Shown here piece after piece: positions 2,076 to 11,040 of a stretch of DNA of 12,797 bases (its first letter is position 1; every line of letters begins with the position of its first letter). The position numbers and the translations under genes are program-made. Under the pieces are notes generated by a model. The model did not search any database. It was given only the letters and a program-made list of their open reading frames with translations, and had not been told where the DNA came from. Origin of the DNA: Actinomycetota bacterium (GTDB taxonomy: Bacteria; Actinomycetota; Thermoleophilia; UBA2241); assembly GCA_003132645.1 (NCBI GenBank), contig PKYM01000073.1:2241-15037 (forward strand), in the 5' to 3' direction.

Positions 2076-2105
2076 CGCACAGGTGGCGCGCCTAGCGCAG
2101 AGCCT
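2066..2105. repeat. 20-bp tandem repeat carrying both convergent stop codons
   Basis: GCGCGCCTAGCGCA occurs at 2066–2079 and again, identically, at 2086–2099, a 20-bp period. In copy one, TAG at 2073–2075 ends the plus-strand 76-residue gene. In copy two, CTA at 2092–2094 is the minus-strand TAG that ends the aminotransferase. The copies diverge after the 14-base core. No hairpin terminator is evident between the genes. Confidence 0.7.
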
Positions 2106-3204
2106 CGCGCAGAGACGCTGAGATGGCGCGCAGGCCGCCCTCGAGCTCGGCCGCTGTGGGCCAGCCGATGCCGATCCGCATGTGGCGGCGTGACTGTTCG
2201 AACCAGTGGCCCGGGCCGACGTAGGTGGCGTGCTCGTCGCTCAGCAGGCGGTAGAACTCGTCGACGTCGACCGGCGCCTCTAGCCTGATGCGTGGGAAAC
2301 ACACGACACCACCTTTGGGCTCGATCCACTCCATCAGCTCTTCGCCGGCCATCCAGGCGCGCATCGTGGCTAGCGCCTCCTGGATGCGCCCTCCGACGTC
2401 GGTGAGCCAGGCCTCGCGACCGCGCAGCGCCTGGAAGGCGATCTCCTCGTCGACCACGCTGCCGCAGATGCCAATCTGTTCCTTGGCGGCGAGGAAGGTG
2501 GTCATGAGCTCGCGATCGCGGGTCAGCAACCAGCCCGTGCGAATGCCGGGGATGCCGTAGGTCTTGGAAAGCGACGACACGCTGATGGCGCGCGGGGAGA
2601 GCGAGGCGGCGCAGGGCAGCAGGCCGCCGAAGCTCATCTCGCGATAGGTCTCGTCGACCAGGAGGCGGCAGCCGGCCGACTCGACCACCGCCACCAGGCG
2701 GCGCAGATCGGACTCGCTCATGAGCTGTCCCGTGGGGTTGTGCGGCTGGGTCACGCTCACATACTTCGTGCGCGGCGTGATGAGCTTCGCCAGCCGGTCG
2801 ATGTCGACGGCGAAGCCCTCCTCGAAGGTCAGGTCGAGGAAGCTGATGTCGGCTTCGATGGCGCGCGGTGTCTCGATGTTGGTGGCGTAGTTGGGCCGCA
2901 CCACGACGAGGTGATCGCCCTTCTCGAGGAGCGTCGTGCCGATGATGAACAGGGCGCCGGCGGCGCCCGCCGTGACCAGCACATCGTCGGCTGAGAGGCC
3001 GCCGCCGGCCGGCCGCGCGACGATCTCGCGCAGGCCGGGGTGGCCCTCGTGGGTGCCGTAGAACAGCACGAGGTCGCGCAGGTCGACGCCGAGGTCGGCG
3101 AGCGAACGGTCGCGCACCGAGCTCTCCGAGAGGTTGAACTTGATCCGGTCGTAGCCGAACTCCTCGGGCGACTCGACTTCGATGGGCATGCGGACGTACT
3201 TCAC
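2092..3204 (-). CDS. PLP-dependent class I/II aminotransferase
   Basis: 370 residues, fold type I. Visible in order: a short N-terminal arm, PNY (104–106), PHNPTG (154–159, cofactor-binding Asn), DETY (184–187, Asp to the pyridine nitrogen and Tyr to O3'), SSLSKTYGIPGIRTGW with Schiff-base Lys214 and phosphate-binding Arg222, and HMRIG with Arg343 placed to hold the substrate carboxylate. All key residues are present, so it should be an active cytoplasmic enzyme transferring amino groups between an amino acid and a 2-oxo acid. The substrate cannot be read from the sequence; a capreomycidine-synthase-like or aspartate-type enzyme is possible. The GTG start at 3204 has an ideal GTAGGAGG site, which itself contains the stop codon of the flavodoxin gene. 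The two are therefore translationally coupled, with 9 nt between them. Confidence 0.9.
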   Translation of the reverse strand: MKYVRMPIEVESPEEFGYDRIKFNLSESSVRDRSLADLGVDLRDLVLFYGTHEGHPGLREIVARPAGGGLSADDVLVTAGAAGALFIIGTTLLEKGDHLVVVRPNYATNIETPRAIEADISFLDLTFEEGFAVDIDRLAKLITPRTKYVSVTQPHNPTGQLMSESDLRRLVAVVESAGCRLLVDETYREMSFGGLLPCAASLSPRAISVSSLSKTYGIPGIRTGWLLTRDRELMTTFLAAKEQIGICGSVVDEEIAFQALRGREAWLTDVGGRIQEALATMRAWMAGEELMEWIEPKGGVVCFPRIRLEAPVDVDEFYRLLSDEHATYVGPGHWFEQSRRHMRIGIGWPTAAELEGGLRAISASLREALR

Positions 3205-3213
3205 GGTGGCCTC

Positions 3214-3711
3214 CTACTGCATCGACCCGGCGAGCTCGGCTCCCCAGAGTCGCGCCTTTTCCAACTCGCCCTCGCGCAGCGGCCCGAACTTGCCCGCCAC
3301 GACGAAGCTCCGCGGCTTGCCGAGCGCACCGTAGCCCGCGTTCGCCAGACCCTTGGCGATCGCCGGGGCGGCGCTTCCCCAGGGACCGCGGACGCGAGTG
3401 TCGAAGGCGGCCGCCCGGCCGTGCCCCGCCGGCAGCGCCTCGAGCCAGGCGCACATCGGCGGATGGGAGAGGTCGGGCGGCGCCGGCGCCTTGCCGGGGT
3501 TGACCCGGATGCTCTCGCGGATCTTCTCGGACGAGAGCTTGAAACCCAGCACGGGGGCGCCCGCCACGATGAGATCGACGTCGGCCAGGGCCGCGCCGGT
3601 CGCCTCGGCGGTGGAAAGCGCCCGGGCCCCGAGCCCGATGCCCTCGGCCACTGCCGCGGCGACGGCGGCGGTGTTGCCCCACAGAGATTCGTAGACGACG
3701 ACGGCTTTCAT
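3214..3711 (-). CDS. Flavodoxin-domain protein
   Basis: 165 residues. The N-terminus MKAVVVYESLWGNTAAVAAA is a beta strand followed by the FMN-phosphate loop (S9–T14, with GNT), the hallmark of flavodoxin-like proteins. A second strand, DVDLIVAGAPVLGFKL (44–59), fits the first isoalloxazine-contact loop. A third, SFVVAGKFGPLREGELEKA (135–153), fits the C-terminal strand-helix. It would be a soluble electron carrier or flavin-dependent reductase domain. The ATG at 3711 follows AGGAAGGTGG; longer in-frame readings upstream run through the MFS gene and are rejected. It is the first gene of a two-gene unit with the aminotransferase, which raises the question whether a redox step accompanies that enzyme. 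The physiological partner is not visible. Confidence 0.85.
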   Translation of the reverse strand: MKAVVVYESLWGNTAAVAAAVAEGIGLGARALSTAEATGAALADVDLIVAGAPVLGFKLSSEKIRESIRVNPGKAPAPPDLSHPPMCAWLEALPAGHGRAAAFDTRVRGPWGSAAPAIAKGLANAGYGALGKPRSFVVAGKFGPLREGELEKARLWGAELAGSMQ

Positions 3712-3810
3712 GACGGCCACCTTCCTGTCGGCGCGCCGGCAAGGGCGACCACCCTCGCCGACCTTCCCGCGACGAGCACCACAGGCCCTCGCACGACGTA
3801 GTGACTCAAA

Positions 3811-3865: not shown

Positions 3866-5155
3866 CTACGAACCGACGACGGGTGGCTTGAGAGTGGTCT
3901 CGAGCGACGTCTCGGGAGGTTGTCGGCGTGACGGCCCGCCGGCGTTCCCGACAACGTCGTGCCCCAGGCGCAGCAGCGGAAAACAGACGGCGCCCGCCAG
4001 CCCCAGGGCGCCGACCACCAGGAACGCGCGCTTGCTGCCCAAAGCGTCCATGGCGAAGCCGCCGCAGAGCGGACCCAGCGCGTAGCCACCCAGATAGACG
4101 ATGGTCCAGGCGCCCATGTAGCGCCCACGCAGCTCGGGCGGGGCAAAGGCGGCCACCACGGTCGAAGCGACGGGGATCAGCAGCACGACGCCCAGACTCA
4201 CGAGCAGCACCAGAGCGACGCTCGGCCAGCCCCAGGGCAGCAGCGGCGTGAGACCGAGGCCGACGCCGATCAGGGCGCTCGCCGCGGAGAGCAGCACCAG
4301 CGGGTTCCAGGCGCGCGTGAGGCGCACCACGGGAAACTGCAGCACGCTGAGACCGATGGCGTAGGCGAGCAGCAGCCGGGCCCACTGGCCGGCCGTGATG
4401 CCGAGCGTCTGCTGGAGCGCCACGGGGAAGGTCGAGACGACCTGACCGAAGCCGTACAGCGGCAGCAGGGCGACTGCGCAGAAGGCGAGGAAGCGCCGGT
4501 CGCGCAGGATGTGTCCGAAGCCGGCGGCCGCCGGGCTGTGCCCGGCGGCCGCCGGCTTCGTCTCGCGCAGCCCGCCGAGGATGACCACGAGAAAGCTCAG
4601 ACAGACCGCCCCGCCGACCACGAACAGCGGGCGAAAACCGGGGCCTCTACCGAGGAAGGCCAGTGCGATCAAGGGACCAACGATCATGCCCACGTTGATC
4701 GCCGTCCGCGAGAGGCCAAAGGCCTCGGCGCGGCGATGCGCGACCGTAAGGTCGGCGATCATGGCGTTGCTGCCGGTCAGGAACATGGCCCAGCCGAAGG
4801 CGGCCTCGATCGAGACCACGACGACCACTTCCGCCAGCGTGTGGGAGAGGCCCAGTCCGACATAGAGGACCGCGCTGCCACAGACCGCCAGCACCAGCAC
4901 GCCGCGGCGCCCGAAGCGGTCCGCGAAGGCCCCGCCAAGGACCTGGAAGGGCAGCCCGGCCAAGCCGGTGATGCCCAGCAGCAGGCCGACGACCGTCATC
5001 GAGATGTGCAGACGACCGTTCAGAAAGAGCGTCTCGAACGGAAAGCACATGTCGACGCCGATGACGTAGACGAGGATGCCCGCCGTGAGCAGCCAGAACT
5101 GGGGCGGGAACTCGCTGAGGCTGCGAACGGTGCGAGACGCGGGCGAAGCTTTCAC
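3866..5155 (-). CDS. MFS transporter (12-helix, drug/metabolite efflux type)
   Basis: About 429 residues with roughly 12 hydrophobic segments. After the second helix comes GGAFADRFGRRG, the MFS motif A loop (about residues 74–85 from this start), strongly conserved in the family. The C-terminal half repeats the fold (LGGYALGPLCGG and following helices). A short Pro/Thr-rich tail ends it. Proton-driven export or import across the inner membrane is expected; the substrate cannot be told. I chose the GTG at 5155 because a TAGACT -10 box ends at 5164, so transcription should begin at or just before this codon and the mRNA would be leaderless. A TTG at 5164 would add three residues and has only a GGGGG stretch as ribosome site. 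It lies downstream of the glycerol-phosphate operon on the same strand, but probably has its own promoter. Confidence 0.88.
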   Translation of the reverse strand: MKASPASRTVRSLSEFPPQFWLLTAGILVYVIGVDMCFPFETLFLNGRLHISMTVVGLLLGITGLAGLPFQVLGGAFADRFGRRGVLVLAVCGSAVLYVGLGLSHTLAEVVVVVSIEAAFGWAMFLTGSNAMIADLTVAHRRAEAFGLSRTAINVGMIVGPLIALAFLGRGPGFRPLFVVGGAVCLSFLVVILGGLRETKPAAAGHSPAAAGFGHILRDRRFLAFCAVALLPLYGFGQVVSTFPVALQQTLGITAGQWARLLLAYAIGLSVLQFPVVRLTRAWNPLVLLSAASALIGVGLGLTPLLPWGWPSVALVLLVSLGVVLLIPVASTVVAAFAPPELRGRYMGAWTIVYLGGYALGPLCGGFAMDALGSKRAFLVVGALGLAGAVCFPLLRLGHDVVGNAGGPSRRQPPETSLETTLKPPVVGS

Positions 5156-5163
5156 AGAGCGCA

Positions 5164-5169
5164 AGTCTA
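5164..5169 (-). promoter_or_regulatory. -10 box TAGACT for the MFS gene
   Basis: The minus strand reads GGGGGTAGACTTGCGCTCTGTG. TAGACT fits TANNNT, and the GTG codon begins 8 nt after it, the distance expected for a transcript starting on or near the start codon. No -35 hexamer is recognisable 16–18 bp upstream. Confidence 0.4.
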
Positions 5170-5176
5170 CCCCCGC

Positions 5177-5467
5177 CTACGGAACTCCATCGAGGATCGG
5201 GCGCGCCCGGACTACGTAGGCGACATCGTCGTCGTACTCGTCCGCGTCGCCGTCGGCGAGACGCCTGAAGCCCGCATCGTCGCCTTCGGCAGTCAGGCGA
5301 ACGACCAGATCGCGCAGCGCCGCGACGCGTCCGGCGACGACGCCGGGGAGCGCAACGCGATCGGCGTGGCCCAGGCCGAGTCGCAGCGCATCGCGACAAC
5401 CACTACTCGCACTCCACCTTCTCGGGACTCTCGAGTCGCAGGTCGCGTACCCCTGACCGGGCCGCAT
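5177..5467 (-). CDS. Possible small protein between glpD and the MFS gene
   Basis: A 96-codon frame begins with ATG inside the 3' end of glpD (65-nt overlap) and fills the 230-bp gap before the MFS promoter. From about residue 26 the codons have strong G/C third positions and a natural composition (DALRLGLGHADRVALPGVVA, then an acidic stretch DGDADEYDDDV). The first 25 residues, read inside glpD, do not look natural, and no ATG, GTG or TTG in this frame lies after the glpD stop. A GTG at about 5399, right after the glpD stop and with a fair ribosome site, is in another frame; a single indel near 5385–5395 would join it to this reading. So this may be a frameshifted small gene, a remnant, or chance. 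No family recognised. Confidence 0.35.
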   Translation of the reverse strand: MRPGQGYATCDSRVPRRWSASSGCRDALRLGLGHADRVALPGVVAGRVAALRDLVVRLTAEGDDAGFRRLADGDADEYDDDVAYVVRARPILDGVP

Positions 5468-7139
5468 CAGACGCGGCGTCGCTCAGCAGCGCCTGGGCGG
5501 CCGACTCGGCCTCGAGTCGCGCCAGGTAGTGGGCGATCTCGCGCTCGACCGCGGCCTCGTCCCAGTCGAGCACGGGCGCCATCAGCCGCGCCGCGCCCTC
5601 GGCGGCCAGCCGGCCGCGGTCGGGCGCCTCGAAGGCGATGTGCGTGCGACGCGTGAGCACATCGTCCAAGTGCAGCGCGCCCTCGCACAGCGCGGCGTAG
5701 CGGACCTCGCCGGCCAGGTAGGTCTCGGCTCCGGCGAGGGGGGCGGCCAGAGCAGGGTCGGCGGCGAGCAGATCGAACACCTCCTCGGCCAGCGTGCCGT
5801 AACGCGCGACCAGGTGGTTCAGCTGGCCCGGCATCAGGCGAGCGGCCCCGGGGTGCCTGCTCAGCCTGAACCCAGCGCCCGCCCGGCCGACGGCCCCCAG
5901 CAGCGGGATGTCGGCCGTGCGACTGGCGTCGACTGCGAAGGGCAGGTCGCGAGCGGCCTTGTCGACGGCGTCGCGCGCCATCAGCCGGTAGGTAGTGTAC
6001 TTGCCGCCAGCGACGCTCACGAACCCCGGCGCGCTGCGCCGCACGGCGTGATTGCGCGACAGCTTCGCGGTCTCTTCGGCCGTGCCGCCCAGCAGGGGCC
6101 GCAGACCGACATACACGGCGATGACGTCGTCGAAGCTCAGGGGCTCCTTGAGCACCTCGTTGGCGTGTTCCAGGAGGTACTGGATGTCGGCGTGAGTGGC
6201 CGAGGGGTGGTCCAGGCCGAAGTGCCAGTCGGTGTCGGTGGTGCCGATGATCCAGTGCTCGCCCCAGGGCAGCACGAAGAGCACGCTCTTCTCGGTGGGC
6301 AGGATGAGCGCGTACTCCGACTCGATCCGGTCGCGGGGCACGACGATGTGCACGCCCTTGGACGGCCGCACGATCATGGGGTCCGCGACGCCCGCCAGGC
6401 GCTCCATCTCGGTGGTCCAGATGCCCGTGGCGTTGATCACCGTGCGGGCGTGCAGATCGAATTCGCCGCCGCCCTCGAGGTCGTGCAGGCGCGCGCCCGC
6501 CACCCCGTCGCCGTCGTGCAGAAAGTCGGTCACGGCGACCGCCGAGGCGCAAACCGCGCCGAGCGACGCAGCCGTGCGCGCCAGCACCAGCGCGAAGCGC
6601 GCGTCGTCGACCTGCGCGTCGTAGTAACGGATGCCGCCCGCCAGAACGTTGCCGCGCAAGCCGGGAGCCGCCTTCAGACAGGCGCGCCGCGACAGGTGCC
6701 GGTGGCGCGGCACCGCCGGGTGCAGGCCGGCCAGCGAGTCGTACAGCAGGAGTCCCGCACCCATGTAGAGGCGATCCCAGACCTTGCGCCTGAGGGGAAA
6801 CAGGAAGGGTGTGGGATGGACCAGGTGCGGAGCGATCTTCTCGATCAGCAGCCGCCGTTCGTGCAGCGCCTCGCGCACCAGCCCGACGTCGAGATGTTCG
6901 AGGTAGCGCAGCCCGCCGTGGATCAGCTTGCTGGAGCGGCTCGACGTGCCGGCGGCAAAGTCGCGCCTTTCCACCAGGGCCACCGACAGGCCGCAGCTCG
7001 CGGCATCGAGAGCGACCCCGCAGCCGGTCACGCCGCCACCGACCACCAGCACGTCGAAAGTCTCCGCGGCAAAGCGCTCCAGAGCGCGTCTGCGGGCATC
7101 GGGACCCAGCCATGTCACGCGCGCCTCAGCGGCCACCAT
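5403..7139 (-). CDS. glpD: Aerobic-type sn-glycerol-3-phosphate dehydrogenase (FAD)
   Basis: 578 residues, normal for GlpD. The dinucleotide-binding start FDVLVVGGGVTGCGVALDAA (glycines near 34–41) is followed by the family signature ERRDFAAGTSSRSSKLIHGG (57–76), which contacts FAD and glycerol phosphate. Later come LRPLLGG and GGKYTTYR, matching conserved GlpD segments, and a C-terminal helical domain of about 120 residues. The enzyme oxidises sn-glycerol 3-phosphate to dihydroxyacetone phosphate at the membrane and passes electrons to quinone. The ATG at 7139 follows CGGAGG at ideal distance. It is the last clear gene of the araM-led operon, 38 nt after the GntR regulator. No glycerol kinase or GlpF lies in the window, so the glycerol 3-phosphate must come from elsewhere. 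Very confident. Confidence 0.95.
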   Translation of the reverse strand: MVAAEARVTWLGPDARRRALERFAAETFDVLVVGGGVTGCGVALDAASCGLSVALVERRDFAAGTSSRSSKLIHGGLRYLEHLDVGLVREALHERRLLIEKIAPHLVHPTPFLFPLRRKVWDRLYMGAGLLLYDSLAGLHPAVPRHRHLSRRACLKAAPGLRGNVLAGGIRYYDAQVDDARFALVLARTAASLGAVCASAVAVTDFLHDGDGVAGARLHDLEGGGEFDLHARTVINATGIWTTEMERLAGVADPMIVRPSKGVHIVVPRDRIESEYALILPTEKSVLFVLPWGEHWIIGTTDTDWHFGLDHPSATHADIQYLLEHANEVLKEPLSFDDVIAVYVGLRPLLGGTAEETAKLSRNHAVRRSAPGFVSVAGGKYTTYRLMARDAVDKAARDLPFAVDASRTADIPLLGAVGRAGAGFRLSRHPGAARLMPGQLNHLVARYGTLAEEVFDLLAADPALAAPLAGAETYLAGEVRYAALCEGALHLDDVLTRRTHIAFEAPDRGRLAAEGAARLMAPVLDWDEAAVEREIAHYLARLEAESAAQALLSDAASDAARSGVRDLRLESPEKVECE

Positions 7140-7177
7140 GAAACCTCCGTAGTCTGCGCCACGTCTGTCGCGGCGCT

Positions 7178-7924
7178 TCAGGCACTGACGCCACCAGCCG
7201 GTGCGTCACTCATGCGGTTCACGCTCAGTTCGAAGATGTCGGGCACGTGCCACTCCGAGGAGAACATCACGGGCCGGCCGAGTTCGTCGAAGTCGACTTG
7301 TTCGATCTCCTGCAGGGGGGAGCCGACCCGCACGTGGAGCAGGCGTGCCAGCCGGGCGTCGGCGACCACGGGATGCAGGGTGGCGAGAGCGCTCCGCACG
7401 CCCGCGTGGGCCTCTTCGAGCAAGGCGTAGAGCGACGACGAACCGACGACGCGCTCGACCGCCTCGCCGAGCAGGACCGCCGAGATACGGTCGGTCGAGT
7501 AGACGACCGGCCGGCCGTCGGCGGTGCGGATCCGCTCGACGTACAGCACGGACTCGGTGGGCGCGATCGCGAGGGCGGCCGCCTCCCCGCCTGTCGCTAC
7601 GCGGACCAGGTGCCGGATCAGCTTGCGCCCCGGTTCCAGCCCGGCTTCGCGGATCATGGCCGTGTAGCTCAGGTTGGCGTTCAGCGTGTGGCGGTGGCGC
7701 GGCAACGCCGTCACGAAGGTGCCCGTGCCATGGCGGCGCACCAGATACCCCGCCTCGACCAAGCCGCGAACGGCCTCGCGGATGGTCGCCCTGCTGACCT
7801 CGAAGCGGGCGGCCAGCTCGTCTTCGTTGGGGAGCCGGTCGCCGGCGACATAGACGTTCGAGAACAGGTCGCTGAGCAGCGAGTCCCGCACGCGGTCGGG
7901 CAGCTTCGGACGAGGCCTCTTCAT
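7178..7924 (-). CDS. GntR-family regulator, HutC/UTRA subfamily
   Basis: 248 residues from the ATG at 7924. Residues 8–75 form the winged helix-turn-helix: LPNEDELAARFEVSRATIRE is the diagnostic GntR recognition region, then VRRHGTGTFV is the wing. From about 90 to 235 the UTRA ligand-binding domain follows (VLYVERIRTADGRPVVYSTD, and near the end VMFSSEWH). UTRA domains bind small phosphorylated or sugar-like effectors. A GTG at 7942 would add six residues and overlap the previous gene by 8 bp; the ATG is preferred because GTAGGGA stands before it. Lying inside the operon, it probably controls the operon itself through the palindrome at 11018–11035, with a pathway phosphate as likely effector. 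The regulator class is certain; target and effector are inferred. Confidence 0.93.
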   Translation of the reverse strand: MKRPRPKLPDRVRDSLLSDLFSNVYVAGDRLPNEDELAARFEVSRATIREAVRGLVEAGYLVRRHGTGTFVTALPRHRHTLNANLSYTAMIREAGLEPGRKLIRHLVRVATGGEAAALAIAPTESVLYVERIRTADGRPVVYSTDRISAVLLGEAVERVVGSSSLYALLEEAHAGVRSALATLHPVVADARLARLLHVRVGSPLQEIEQVDFDELGRPVMFSSEWHVPDIFELSVNRMSDAPAGGVSA

Positions 7925-7934
7925 GATCGGGTCC

Positions 7935-8621
7935 CTACTCACGGAGAGCTTCGGCAGCCGCTGTGATGTTCAGGACCTCGGTGATCTGGCCGGCCAGGTC
8001 GGGTGCGCCGGGCAGACGCCCCTCGAAGATCGCGCCACCGATGGTGAAGCCCCACGCCCCCGCCGCGGCGACGAGACGGATCTGCTCAGACGTGGCGATC
8101 GAGCCGGCCACGACGACCGGTCCGGCCGACGCGATGACGACTTCGTGAGTCAGCGCGATGGGGTCCTGGTCGGGACTGCGATAGGCGAGCAGGTCGAGAC
8201 CGTAGACGCCGTCCAGAGCCGAGAGGTTGCGGGCGTCCTGGCTGATCTCGGCGATGCTTCCCAGAAGGACGCTGGGATGACCGTCGATGCGACCCGGGAA
8301 AGGACAGTACTTGATACCGCTGCCGGCGAGGAGGCGCACGCCGTCGTCGGCGTGCGTGCCGCCGAGGATCCAGTCGACGCCGATCTGCCGGGCCGCCTCG
8401 AGCGAGACGAGCTCGGACTCCCGCGAGGTCGACACGACCTCGAGCATGACCTCAAGGCCGTCGGCGTGAGCCTTCTCGGCCACGACGGCGAGCTCGTCGG
8501 GCGTGGCGCCGATGTCCTTGAAGCCGACGTAGTGCAGAGCCGTGCCGCGCAGCGAGTCGTAGACCTTGGCGGCATCGGGCACGGTGCTGTCGTTATGGGT
8601 CAGCATGAAGACGAAGTTCAC
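7935..8621 (-). CDS. TIM-barrel protein of unassigned function with phosphate-binding motif
   Basis: 228 residues with alternating beta strands and helices typical of a (beta/alpha)8 barrel. Strand-end motifs include HYVGFKDIGAT (30–40), VMLEVVSTSRESE (58–70), WILGGTH (84–90) and IKYCPFPGRIDGHPS (103–117). The last two strands carry GSIAT (173–177) and GFTIGGAIFEG (191–201), the standard phosphate-binding loops of the ribulose-phosphate-binding-like superfamily. So a small phosphorylated substrate is likely. I do not recognise the precise family; an epimerase, aldolase or isomerase would fit, and the 'KD' in strand 2 and 'E' in strand 3 are candidate catalytic residues. GTG start at 8621 with AGGAGG; its GTGA overlaps the HAD gene stop. 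It ends against the regulator gene. Its product should act with AraM and the phosphatase. Confidence 0.8.
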   Translation of the reverse strand: MNFVFMLTHNDSTVPDAAKVYDSLRGTALHYVGFKDIGATPDELAVVAEKAHADGLEVMLEVVSTSRESELVSLEAARQIGVDWILGGTHADDGVRLLAGSGIKYCPFPGRIDGHPSVLLGSIAEISQDARNLSALDGVYGLDLLAYRSPDQDPIALTHEVVIASAGPVVVAGSIATSEQIRLVAAAGAWGFTIGGAIFEGRLPGAPDLAGQITEVLNITAAAEALRE

Positions 8622-9484
8622 TGCGAGGCCTCCTGGCGGCGGGAAGAGCGTTCGGGCAGAAGCTGGGCGAGGCTATCGATCACGAAGTCGGGCGTGACGG
8701 AGGCGCCGGCGAGACTGTCGGCGCGAGTCGCCCCCGTCAGGGTGAGGATGCCCGTCATGCCCAGCGACAGGGCCATGGCGACGTCGGTGAGCAGGCGGTC
8801 GCCGATCACCACGACGTCCTGGGCGGGCAATCCGAGCCGGCCCAGCAGGGCACGCGCCATGTGGATGCTCGGCTTGCCGACCACCGCCTCCGCCCTGGCC
8901 CCCGTGCTGGCCTCGATGGCCGCCAGCATGGCGGCGCAGTCGGGCAGCCCGCCCTCGGGCGTCGGACAATAGGGGTCGGGGTTGGTGGCCACGATGGTCG
9001 CGCCGTGGTAGCGCACCGCCTGAAAGGCGGCGTTCAGTTTCTCGTAGTCGAAGGTGCGGTCGAAGGACACGACGACCACCTGAGTCTCCAGCGGGTCCTT
9101 GGTCACCGTGAAGCCGGCCCCGCGGATCTCGTCGATGGTCGATTGCTCGGCCACCGCAAGGACGGTCTCGCCTGGATGCTCGCGGCCGAGATAGTCCACC
9201 AGCGCATCGACTGAGGTCACCACGTCGGCGCGCGCCGTGGGCACGCCGAGGCGCGTCAGCTTGCGCGCGTAGTCGTCGGCGGTGTGAAGCGGCTTGTTGG
9301 TCACATAGACGATGCGCGAGCCGGCCCGCCGGATGGCTTCGATCGTCTCGGCCGCGCAGGGCAGCAGGGCGTCGCCCAGGTAGACCGTGCCGTCGAGGTC
9401 GAAGGCGTACCCCGGGTAGATCCGCGTCGGTCGGCTGGTCGCCGGCAGGCTCAGCGTGTCGCGGCTTGCGATGTCGCAGCTCAC
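8618..9484 (-). CDS. HAD-superfamily class IIA phosphatase (NagD/AraL-like)
   Basis: 288 residues. Motif I is FDLDGTVY with nucleophile Asp29 and acid/base Asp31; motif II is YVTNKP (Thr62); motif III Lys204 lies in VVGKPS; motif IV is IGDRLLTDV (Asp229, Asp234). Between motifs II and III lies a C2-type cap of about 110 residues (ending ATNPDPYCPTPEGGLPDCAA), which identifies HAD-IIA enzymes such as NagD, AraL and phosphoglycolate phosphatase. These dephosphorylate small sugar or polyol phosphates with Mg2+ in the cytoplasm. GTG start at 9484 overlaps the araM stop by 4 bp, and the 3' end overlaps the TIM-barrel gene by 4 bp. In Bacillus subtilis araL and araM are also adjacent. The first 20 residues look dispensable and the start could lie a little further in. 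Confidence 0.92.
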   Translation of the reverse strand: MSCDIASRDTLSLPATSRPTRIYPGYAFDLDGTVYLGDALLPCAAETIEAIRRAGSRIVYVTNKPLHTADDYARKLTRLGVPTARADVVTSVDALVDYLGREHPGETVLAVAEQSTIDEIRGAGFTVTKDPLETQVVVVSFDRTFDYEKLNAAFQAVRYHGATIVATNPDPYCPTPEGGLPDCAAMLAAIEASTGARAEAVVGKPSIHMARALLGRLGLPAQDVVVIGDRLLTDVAMALSLGMTGILTLTGATRADSLAGASVTPDFVIDSLAQLLPERSSRRQEASQ

Positions 9485-10899
9485 GTCGCACCTCCGAGAG
9501 CCGCGGCGTCGGACAGGAGCGCATCGACACAGGCCGCGTCCCAGATGCCCAGAAAGCAGGCCATGTCGGCCACCGAGAAGCGGTCGCGCATCAGATGGCA
9601 GCTGGCGGTGGCCCAGCGCGCGGTGGCTTCGTCGGCCGGCGGCTCCACCTCGGAAAACAGCACCGGGGCGCCGGCGCTGCGCAGCGCCGCCACGAGCGCC
9701 TCGGGCCCGGCCAGCAGGTCACGCAGGGCCCGGTCGTGGACCGGCCAGTCGCGAGCCGCCAGCTCGATCCGCTCGCCGGCGCCCGCCCAAAGCGCCAGCT
9801 TGCGCGAGTAGTCACGCCAGCACTCCTCGCCCATCTGGCCGCTGGGATCGACGGTGAGAAACGCGGCCCGCACGCCGGCCTCGGCCTGTGCTGCGTCCGG
9901 CACGAGGACCCGCGACAGGCCGCCGTCGGCCAGTACGTCGAGGACGCGCTGCCAGAGGAGAGCGGCGACGATGCTGCTGGCCCCCACTTGGGCGCCGTGC
10001 AGGGCCGCCTCACGGCCGGCCTGCATGGTCGCCATCTCGATCAGGTGACTGACGGTGTGCTCCATGCCCGAGCAGGGTGCCGTGGTGCCGGCGATGCCCA
10101 TCGAGATGCCGCTCAGCGTGAGGGTCGCGGCGACCTGGGCGAGCGCCGCCCGGTCGGCGTGCGGCACATGAGGAGCGGTCGCGAGCACGGCCGGTCCCTG
10201 CTCGCGAGCCAGCGCGACGACGGTCGGCGAGTAGGTGTCGTCCATGCCGAGCAGCGTGGCCAGGTACCAGTCGGCGGGCGCCGTGAAGGTGGCGATCAGG
10301 TCGGCAAAGCCGGCGACGTTCATCTCGACCGGAGCGGAGACGAGCACGTCGGTGTCGATCACGAGCGCGTCGGCCCAGGTCGTCGGCGTGGTGCGCTTCA
10401 CCCCGTTGACGAGCAGCACCGAGCGATCGTCGGCGAAGCCGTTGACGCTGTTGGCGGTCTGCACGACGACGTAGGCCATGCCGTGGGCCGCCGCGACCAC
10501 CTTGCCGATGTCGGCGACCGTGCCGGACCCGACCGCCACAAGACAGGCGGCGCCCTCGCCGTCGCGAGTGGCCTTGGCGAGCGTCTCCTCGTCGGCGTGC
10601 AAGGGGTGACCGGGCGTGCCGAGAGCGACGCTGCGCACGCGGCACTGCGCCGCCAGGGTCGCGGTGACGTGGTCCAGCAGATCGGCCGACCGGTAGAGCT
10701 TCGGCGTCCGGTCGGAAAGGATGCCGACGGGGCCCTCGGAACGGCGCGCATCGACGAGATCGGCAACGACCTGGGGCAAGGCCGCCAAGGCGTCGTCACC
10801 GAGGACGACCGTCTGCAGGCCCAGTCGCTCGAGCCTGGCGCCGTCGGGCGCCGCCGCGAGCCGGCGCCTCAGTGCATCGAGGTCAAACAGGTCGGTCAT
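9481..10899 (-). CDS. araM: sn-glycerol-1-phosphate dehydrogenase, AraM/EgsA type
   Basis: 472 residues of the iron-containing-alcohol-dehydrogenase/DHQ-synthase fold. VGSGTVADIGK (123–133) is the NAD(P)-binding glycine loop; TANSVNGFAD (148–157) follows as in AraM/EgsA. Metal ligands are expected at Asp200 (AGFAD), His281 (SGMEH) and His301 (LHGAQ), all present. The C-terminal segment CHLMRDRFSVADMACFLG also fits the family. The enzyme interconverts sn-glycerol 1-phosphate and dihydroxyacetone phosphate, the reaction archaea use to make lipid backbones; in B. subtilis AraM serves heptaprenylglyceryl phosphate synthesis. It is longer than B. subtilis AraM (394 residues). The ATG at 10899 follows GGAGG with a rather long 10-nt gap. 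First gene of the operon, behind a strong promoter. Here a catabolic direction is likely. Confidence 0.9.
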   Translation of the reverse strand: MTDLFDLDALRRRLAAAPDGARLERLGLQTVVLGDDALAALPQVVADLVDARRSEGPVGILSDRTPKLYRSADLLDHVTATLAAQCRVRSVALGTPGHPLHADEETLAKATRDGEGAACLVAVGSGTVADIGKVVAAAHGMAYVVVQTANSVNGFADDRSVLLVNGVKRTTPTTWADALVIDTDVLVSAPVEMNVAGFADLIATFTAPADWYLATLLGMDDTYSPTVVALAREQGPAVLATAPHVPHADRAALAQVAATLTLSGISMGIAGTTAPCSGMEHTVSHLIEMATMQAGREAALHGAQVGASSIVAALLWQRVLDVLADGGLSRVLVPDAAQAEAGVRAAFLTVDPSGQMGEECWRDYSRKLALWAGAGERIELAARDWPVHDRALRDLLAGPEALVAALRSAGAPVLFSEVEPPADEATARWATASCHLMRDRFSVADMACFLGIWDAACVDALLSDAAALGGAT

Positions 10900-11011: not shown

Positions 11012-11040
11012 ACCATAACGTCAGACGTCTGATGTATCAA
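11012..11040 (-). promoter_or_regulatory. Promoter of the araM operon
   Basis: On the minus strand TTGATA (11035–11040, five of six to the -35 consensus) and TATGGT (11012–11017, four of six to the -10 consensus and fitting TANNNT) are separated by exactly 17 bp. The start point would be near 11005, giving a leader of about 105 nt before the araM ATG. It is the best sigma-70-type promoter in the window. Confidence 0.7.
11018..11035. promoter_or_regulatory. Operator palindrome between -35 and -10
   Basis: TCAGACGTCTGA at 11021–11032 is a perfect 12-bp palindrome. The full 18 bp, from 11018 to 11035, is symmetrical with only one mismatched pair. It fills the promoter spacer, so a bound dimer would block RNA polymerase. 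The GntR/UTRA protein encoded in the same operon is the obvious candidate ligand; the site is not the textbook HutC operator sequence. Confidence 0.65.

Follow-up and report, generated by a model that had tools for sequence, protein, structure and literature searches.

A conserved five-gene operon of Actinomycetota with a putative role in polyol-phosphate catabolism

A 12,797-nucleotide stretch of the genome of a soil actinobacterium (Actinomycetota; contig PKYM01000073.1, forward-strand positions 2,241 to 15,037; G000:C95:2241-15037 in our numbering; assembly 88% complete), here called the window, carries a minus-strand set of five genes. In order, they encode an AraM-like dehydrogenase, a HAD-IIA phosphatase, a TIM-barrel protein (hereafter TIM), a GntR-UTRA regulator and a GlpD-like dehydrogenase. 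The operon is real and conserved. Most of its parts are ordinary, and one belongs to a widespread uncharacterised enzyme family. The operon probably turns a phosphorylated sugar alcohol into an intermediate of central metabolism. Our fuller proposal, which we hold tentatively, is that it forms the dehydrogenase part of a kinase-initiated catabolism of a short polyol or sugar, in which TIM would handle the resulting ketone phosphate.

Gene order and conservation among relatives

The araM-like gene (9481..10899, minus strand, 472 aa) is followed on the same strand by the genes for the HAD-IIA phosphatase (8618..9484, 288 aa), TIM (7935..8621, 228 aa), the GntR-UTRA regulator (7178..7942, 254 aa) and the GlpD-like FAD dehydrogenase (5403..7139, 578 aa). 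The araM/HAD and HAD/TIM junctions are GTGA overlaps, reading GACGTGAGC and GCAGTGAAC. TIM and gntR overlap by 8 bp, and a 38-bp gap separates gntR from glpD, which is preceded by GGAGG. The initial annotation had described a tight five-gene unit; its order, strand and coordinates, and the GTGA overlaps at the first two junctions, were as claimed.

Gene neighbourhoods bear out the idea of a conserved unit. In G001, the one further genome of this genus that we found (PLTW01000140.1), all five genes occur in the same order, GntR included, with identities of 81, 81, 85, 81 and 68%. The Streptosporangiales locus L006 has an FGGY kinase gene (cut by the contig end), AraM, HAD, TIM, a second FGGY and GlpD, the first four joined by 4-bp overlaps, and no adjacent GntR. 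The G438 operon runs FGGY, AraM, HAD, TIM, GlpD and an ABC importer of the PotA-PotD-PotB-PotC type, with GntR at the far end (52% identical to the window GntR). AraM, HAD, TIM and GlpD thus occur together in three of the five relatives with a close TIM. Since all five genes are ordered in G001 and AraM-HAD-TIM are ordered in L006 and G438, the set goes beyond chance. None of the literature titles and abstract starts searched, with subscription papers mostly outside reach, describes it.

FGGY heads two of these three operons. In L006 and G438 a xylulokinase-like FGGY gene immediately precedes araM and overlaps its start by 4 bp, and a similar gene immediately precedes TIM in G217. The second FGGY of L006 (FGGYb) is matched best as a glycerol kinase, at 430.6 bits (cut-off 590). 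Because the L006 and G438 operons are headed by FGGY, the absence of a kinase from the window is a local matter. Eight FGGY matches were found in G000, on five other contigs. In G001, FGGY and MFS genes come ∼1.8 kb past glpD, with two genes of the opposite strand in between.

The upstream kinase suggests that the pathway begins with phosphorylation of a polyol or sugar and not with scavenging of glycerol phosphates. The operon had first been read as a kinase-free system that collects ready-made glycerol phosphates. That part of the interpretation is not supported, since both L006 and G438 have an FGGY gene that runs into araM, and G438 also has an ABC importer after glpD. What survives of it is the conserved unit, the GntR-UTRA regulator and the pairing of AraM- and GlpD-type dehydrogenases, whose ligand residues are conserved.

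The enzymes, the regulator and the TIM-barrel family

The AraM-like protein belongs to the iron-containing alcohol dehydrogenase (Fe-ADH) family, with an Fe-ADH_2 match of 76.4 bits (cut-off 28). Against the curated model of glycerol-1-phosphate dehydrogenase (G1PDH), PRK00843, it scored 133.4 bits, far below the cut-off of 413, and with phmmer it matched G1PDH structures. The Asp-His-His metal site of the family is intact (D200, H281 and H301). In a set of 26 AraM-like proteins, both His residues are present in all rows and Asp is replaced by Glu in two (G438 and Shinella WSC3). The tree of these 26, which includes G438 and G431 and leaves out two non-AraM rows of G000 with very long branches, one of them apparently read in a wrong frame, places the window protein in a clade of 13 rows, mostly of ∼470 residues, with support of 100/99. 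A GVKRT motif is conserved within this clade. The AraM of the Priestia ara locus and the rhizobial AraMs fall outside it. The window, G001 and L006 proteins join at 94/92, and G438 is added at 80/55; with such support, this grouping is not firm.

An AraM match at 1e-50 was found in seven of 396 genomes of the phylum (eight loci). Among 44 plasmid records with an AraM match, we fetched 14 annotated regions, counting AraB and XylB as FGGY kinases. FGGY kinase was present in 12 of the 14, GlpD in nine, HAD in nine and all three in eight. These regions are not independent, because several stem from rhizobia that are kin to each other and a single Rubrobacter contributes two plasmids. Rubrobacter plasmids L117 and L122 carry a long polyol-type cluster with dihydroxyacetone kinase, HAD-IIA, one or two AraM, RpiB, FGGY kinases and GlpD. 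An alphaproteobacterial locus of AraM and an FGGY or XylB kinase is kept in L115, L116, L118, L120, L121, L123 and L126, mostly with HAD-IIB, GlpD, a "sugar-binding transcriptional regulator" and a sugar ABC transporter; among the literature titles and abstract starts, we found no function given for it. One 14-kb contig (L064; G217:C144), labelled partly by reading, holds AraM, a glycerol-kinase-like FGGY, GlpD, a second TpiA, a class II aldolase, an E1-like protein, DhaK and DhaL.

The phosphatase matched TIGR01460 at 126 bits (cut-off 100.15). It contains the HAD motifs FDLDGT (28), TNKP, GKPS (203) and GDRLLTD (228), and it matches the structures of NagD and of 4-nitrophenylphosphatase.

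In the GlpD-like protein, DAO and DAO_C are both above cut-off, and the PRK12266 GlpD model gave 323.8 bits, below its cut-off of 360. We take the substrate-binding positions of E. coli GlpD to be R54, Y55, H233, R317, R332 and K354; all six are conserved in the window protein, as R78, Y79, H264, R347, R362 and K380. A seventh expected position (375) misfits even the E. coli sequence and was not used. The GlpD proteins of the window, G001, L006 and G438 group together at 92/99, just short of the star given by the tool. As candidates for further GlpD copies in G000, three other long DAO matches were considered and rejected, as they resemble each other and not GlpD at 1e-5; a further 28 weaker or partial matches lay outside this comparison. 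The regulator has an N-terminal GntR domain (70 bits) and a C-terminal UTRA domain (95.5 bits), both above cut-off, in agreement with the GntR-type regulator first proposed.

The initial annotation also called TIM an unknown TIM-barrel enzyme, and this holds. AlphaFold 2 (AF2) predicts a confident barrel (pLDDT 91.3, pTM 0.90), and the protein matched no Pfam family at 1e-3. Its PF00977 match is 12 bits, below the cut-off of 23.6; PF00977 was matched in 18 of 19 members of the family (best 2.3e-5). A profile of 21 members aligned with HisA/PriA at 4.4e-7, in the phosphate-binding β7-β8 part only (profile positions 158–211). D11, K35, E61 and R148 are invariant. PF00121 (TpiA) had no match in TIM, nor was it among the eight families matched by any of the 19 members at E≤10. 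Homology to KGPDC and RPE was considered and found no support (hhalign 0.7% and 2.6%, with profiles of one or two sequences only).

Among 7718 candidates, 4031 homologues of TIM were found at E≤1e-3. Databases now name them "hypothetical protein", HisF or "4-hydroxythreonine-4-phosphate dehydrogenase". The distribution is patchy. At 1e-40, TIM occurs in two of 15 genomes of the order and in three of 66 in the class of G217. At 1e-3 it was found in four of 60 relatives, two of these being weak partial matches, and at 1e-10 in 12 of 396 genomes of the phylum, its own included.

Its neighbours share a pattern. In a lower-GC family of the phylum, FGGY is near a distant TIM in seven of nine loci, and several of these loci have class II aldolase, FucI-like or phosphotransferase-system (PTS)-type genes (labels partly by reading). 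Among plasmid matches to TIM, 21 of 23 records are proteobacterial. We fetched nine of these 21 loci and labelled them by tblastn with Roseateles proteins: PdxA is directly upstream of TIM in eight and a DUF1537 kinase is present in seven. The locus with neither is a broken-looking copy in Rhizobium RCAM05350. TIM-cupin fusions occur in Mesorhizobium and Aminobacter (L037:8995-10050 and L049:6995-8035), and in Gluconobacter (L039) a separate cupin gene comes after TIM.

The theme common to these contexts appears to be a kinase, a dehydrogenase acting next to CH2OP, and then TIM. PdxA and AraM are unrelated, and both oxidise the carbon next to CH2OP; therefore TIM would come after one and the same kind of reaction in two pathways that are unrelated. 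In these contexts the step before TIM is expected to yield dihydroxyacetone phosphate (DHAP) or a similar ketone phosphate, and our proposal for the mechanism of TIM starts from there. With some reserve, we propose that the family is one undescribed catabolic enzyme acting on a DHAP-type ketone phosphate, after FGGY-AraM in Actinobacteria and after DUF1537-PdxA in Proteobacteria.

Proposed pathway and alternatives

From the genes, their order and conservation, the predicted fold, the conserved residues and the kinase and PdxA/DUF1537 neighbours, we infer the following route; this applies to each substrate and to the direction, to what TIM catalyses, to the parts played by HAD and GntR, and to the operator. 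The substrate would be a short polyol or sugar, probably of three to five carbons. An FGGY kinase would phosphorylate a terminal CH2OH; two related operons encode one immediately ahead of araM, and this genome has FGGY genes at other places. AraM, expected to depend on NAD(P) and a metal, would oxidise the carbinol next to CH2OP. GlpD, expected to use FAD and to be quinone linked, would do the same in a phosphate of the opposite configuration. The product of both would be a DHAP-type ketone phosphate. TIM, with its putative phosphate cup at β7/β8, would act on this as an isomerase, epimerase or lyase, and its product would feed into glycolysis. HAD may strip phosphate from a dead-end or inhibitory intermediate, and GntR-UTRA may repress upstream of araM until a phosphorylated ligand arrives.

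Several observations weigh against this route. The window operon has no FGGY gene, and the G001 FGGY beyond glpD is only 26–28% identical to those of G217 and L006. On its 6-kb contig, G431 has AraM then TIM without HAD or GlpD, and the 3-kb contig of G217 has FGGY directly upstream of TIM without AraM. Neither FGGY nor GlpD is near the AraM locus of G099, and two of the 14 AraM plasmid regions have none of FGGY, GlpD and HAD. FGGY is missing from two of the nine lower-GC TIM loci, and for G384, Staphylococcus warneri and a short Streptomyces fragment we saw no pathway genes beside TIM. At the metal-binding position D200, G438 and Shinella have Glu. Two dehydrogenases are needless if only one configuration occurs. 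The chemistry of TIM is not predictable, given the hhalign values for KGPDC and RPE.

An unlikely alternative, though the best placed of those we weighed, is the salvage, first put forward in the initial annotation, of glycerol phosphates of both hands, with AraM acting on sn-glycerol 1-phosphate (G1P), GlpD on sn-glycerol 3-phosphate and TIM on the DHAP that both produce. It draws on a G1PDH-family AraM with its metal residues and clade-conserved GVKRT motif, on the conserved substrate residues of GlpD and on the glycerol-kinase-like score of FGGYb. Besides the window GlpD, no other full-length one was found in the assembly, which is 88% complete, and a Rubrobacter AraM locus holds a hydrolase, an aquaporin, GlpD and two FGGY kinases. 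What speaks against it is the xylulokinase-like FGGY directly upstream of araM (L006 and G438) or TIM (G217), together with the distance of AraM from proven enzymes, seen in its score on the G1PDH model and in its separate clade. Moreover, a remote G1PDH homologue has another activity: Sato et al. 2022 (PMC9700705) studied a haloarchaeal protein that carries a G1PDH annotation and shares 22.5% identity with a proven G1PDH, and found that it acts as a glycolaldehyde reductase, with no notable activity on G1P or DHAP.

That homologue leads to a further reading, somewhat less probable again, in which AraM is an aldehyde reductase. Either TIM or a class II aldolase would split a ketose 1-phosphate into DHAP and an aldehyde such as glycolaldehyde, and AraM would reduce the aldehyde. 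According to the same paper, haloarchaea combine a HAD phosphatase, a FucA aldolase and a G1PDH-like glycolaldehyde reductase (PMC9700705). Partly by reading, we found a class II aldolase near AraM or TIM in G276, G383, G217, Shinella, Acidiphilium and G281. The operons of the window, L006 and G438 showed no aldolase, however, and this reading leaves GlpD without explanation.

It is improbable that TIM is a non-homologous triosephosphate isomerase dedicated to the pathway. The partners of TIM are expected to make DHAP, and G000 has no TpiA match. TpiA was found, however, in 30 of the 31 genomes tested, the remaining TIM carriers in that set included (the set did not extend to G438 and G431), and also in 14 control genomes. 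A replacement of TpiA is unlikely for this reason, and the gap in G000 fits an 88%-complete assembly; the missing TpiA is probably an assembly gap.

PcrB is presumably the prenyltransferase partner that uses the G1P of B. subtilis AraM. A lipid-type route of this kind, with AraM making G1P for TIM as a PcrB/GGGPS-like prenyltransferase, is very improbable: in B. subtilis, the G1P of an ether phospholipid comes from AraM (PMC13400652), and weak GGGPS matches exist in the phosphate-binding part of TIM, but HisA, TrpA and NanE match TIM better, family scans of TIM gave no prenyltransferase family match, and the TIM family also sits with DUF1537/PdxA and aldolase genes without AraM.

If the kinase-initiated route and the proposed role of TIM are right, the TIM family would complete both a polyol and a four-carbon acid pathway, and assays of one small protein would name a family of at least 4031 database homologues and explain one catabolic step in each of two pathways that soil and root bacteria use. 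It would also bear on whether bacterial AraM-type enzymes can be catabolic polyol-phosphate dehydrogenases instead of markers of archaea-type lipids, and the role of AraM matters for the reading of G1PDH genes in studies of the lipid divide.

Control region, flanking genes and known systems

A candidate promoter, TTGATA-17-TATGGT by reading, lies ∼120 bp upstream of araM (11012..11040, minus strand) together with a candidate GntR operator, the palindrome TCAGACGTCTGA (11021–11032) within its spacer. The exact palindrome matches once in the window. Matches with ≤2 mismatches were present in 82 of 200 shuffles; as loose matches are common by chance, the palindrome is a candidate only. Upstream of araM in G001, CGTCTGACGT is followed by TATGGT at the matching place, with two extra bases between them, and no such site is shared by the G438 upstream region. 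Also upstream of araM in G001 (L005:3350-5578), lies a reading that by eye looks like a fusion of a class II aldolase with a class III aminotransferase; no counterpart was seen upstream of araM in the window.

An MFS transporter gene (3866..5164, minus strand; MFS_1 147.3 bits) starts 238 bp past glpD on the same strand, and its membership of the operon is uncertain. The earlier statement that no transporter is present is right for the five genes themselves and fails just beyond them. L006 and G438 have no MFS gene directly 3′ of glpD; in L006 an MFS-like reading lies ∼3.2 kb further on. Further along the window are a flavodoxin-like gene by eye (3214–3744, minus strand; MKAVVVYESLWGNT...; no Pfam or NCBIfam match at 1e-3) and a pyridoxal phosphate (PLP) aminotransferase gene (2092–3204, minus strand). 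The best families of the latter include capreomycidine synthase VioD and guanitoxin GntC (∼203–210 bits, under cut-offs), and no biosynthetic cluster was recognised in the window.

The Bacillus ara operon resembles the operon relatives in that it pairs an AraM-family dehydrogenase with an FGGY kinase. In B. subtilis, araL, which presumably encodes a HAD phosphatase, is adjacent to araM. A Priestia plasmid locus carries AraB and a 354-aa AraM, which is 28.5% identical to the window AraM over 256 aa and belongs to a different clade; unlike the window, the Priestia ara region has no TIM, GntR or GlpD. Erythritol operons combine a polyol kinase, a GlpD-type polyol-phosphate dehydrogenase, an ABC importer and isomerase steps. 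The proposed pathway would share these four, whereas AraM and HAD are extra in the window and the window TIM has no TpiA (PF00121) match. The genes of the erythritol operon are listed as eryABC/HI in the accessible part of PMC10190533. The haloarchaeal non-carboxylating pentose bisphosphate pathway is a DHAP-forming route that likewise has a HAD phosphatase and a protein of the G1PDH family; it differs in its kinase, and the accessible text mentions no such TIM-barrel protein, GlpD or GntR (PMC9700705).

With the DUF1537-PdxA2 pathway, the likeness lies in TIM itself, the same family coming directly after PdxA in eight of nine fetched loci. This four-carbon acid pathway was reportedly described by Zhang et al. 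in 2016, a study that PMC7954711 cites, and its product is said to be DHAP. In the present operons, FGGY and AraM occupy the places of DUF1537 and PdxA.

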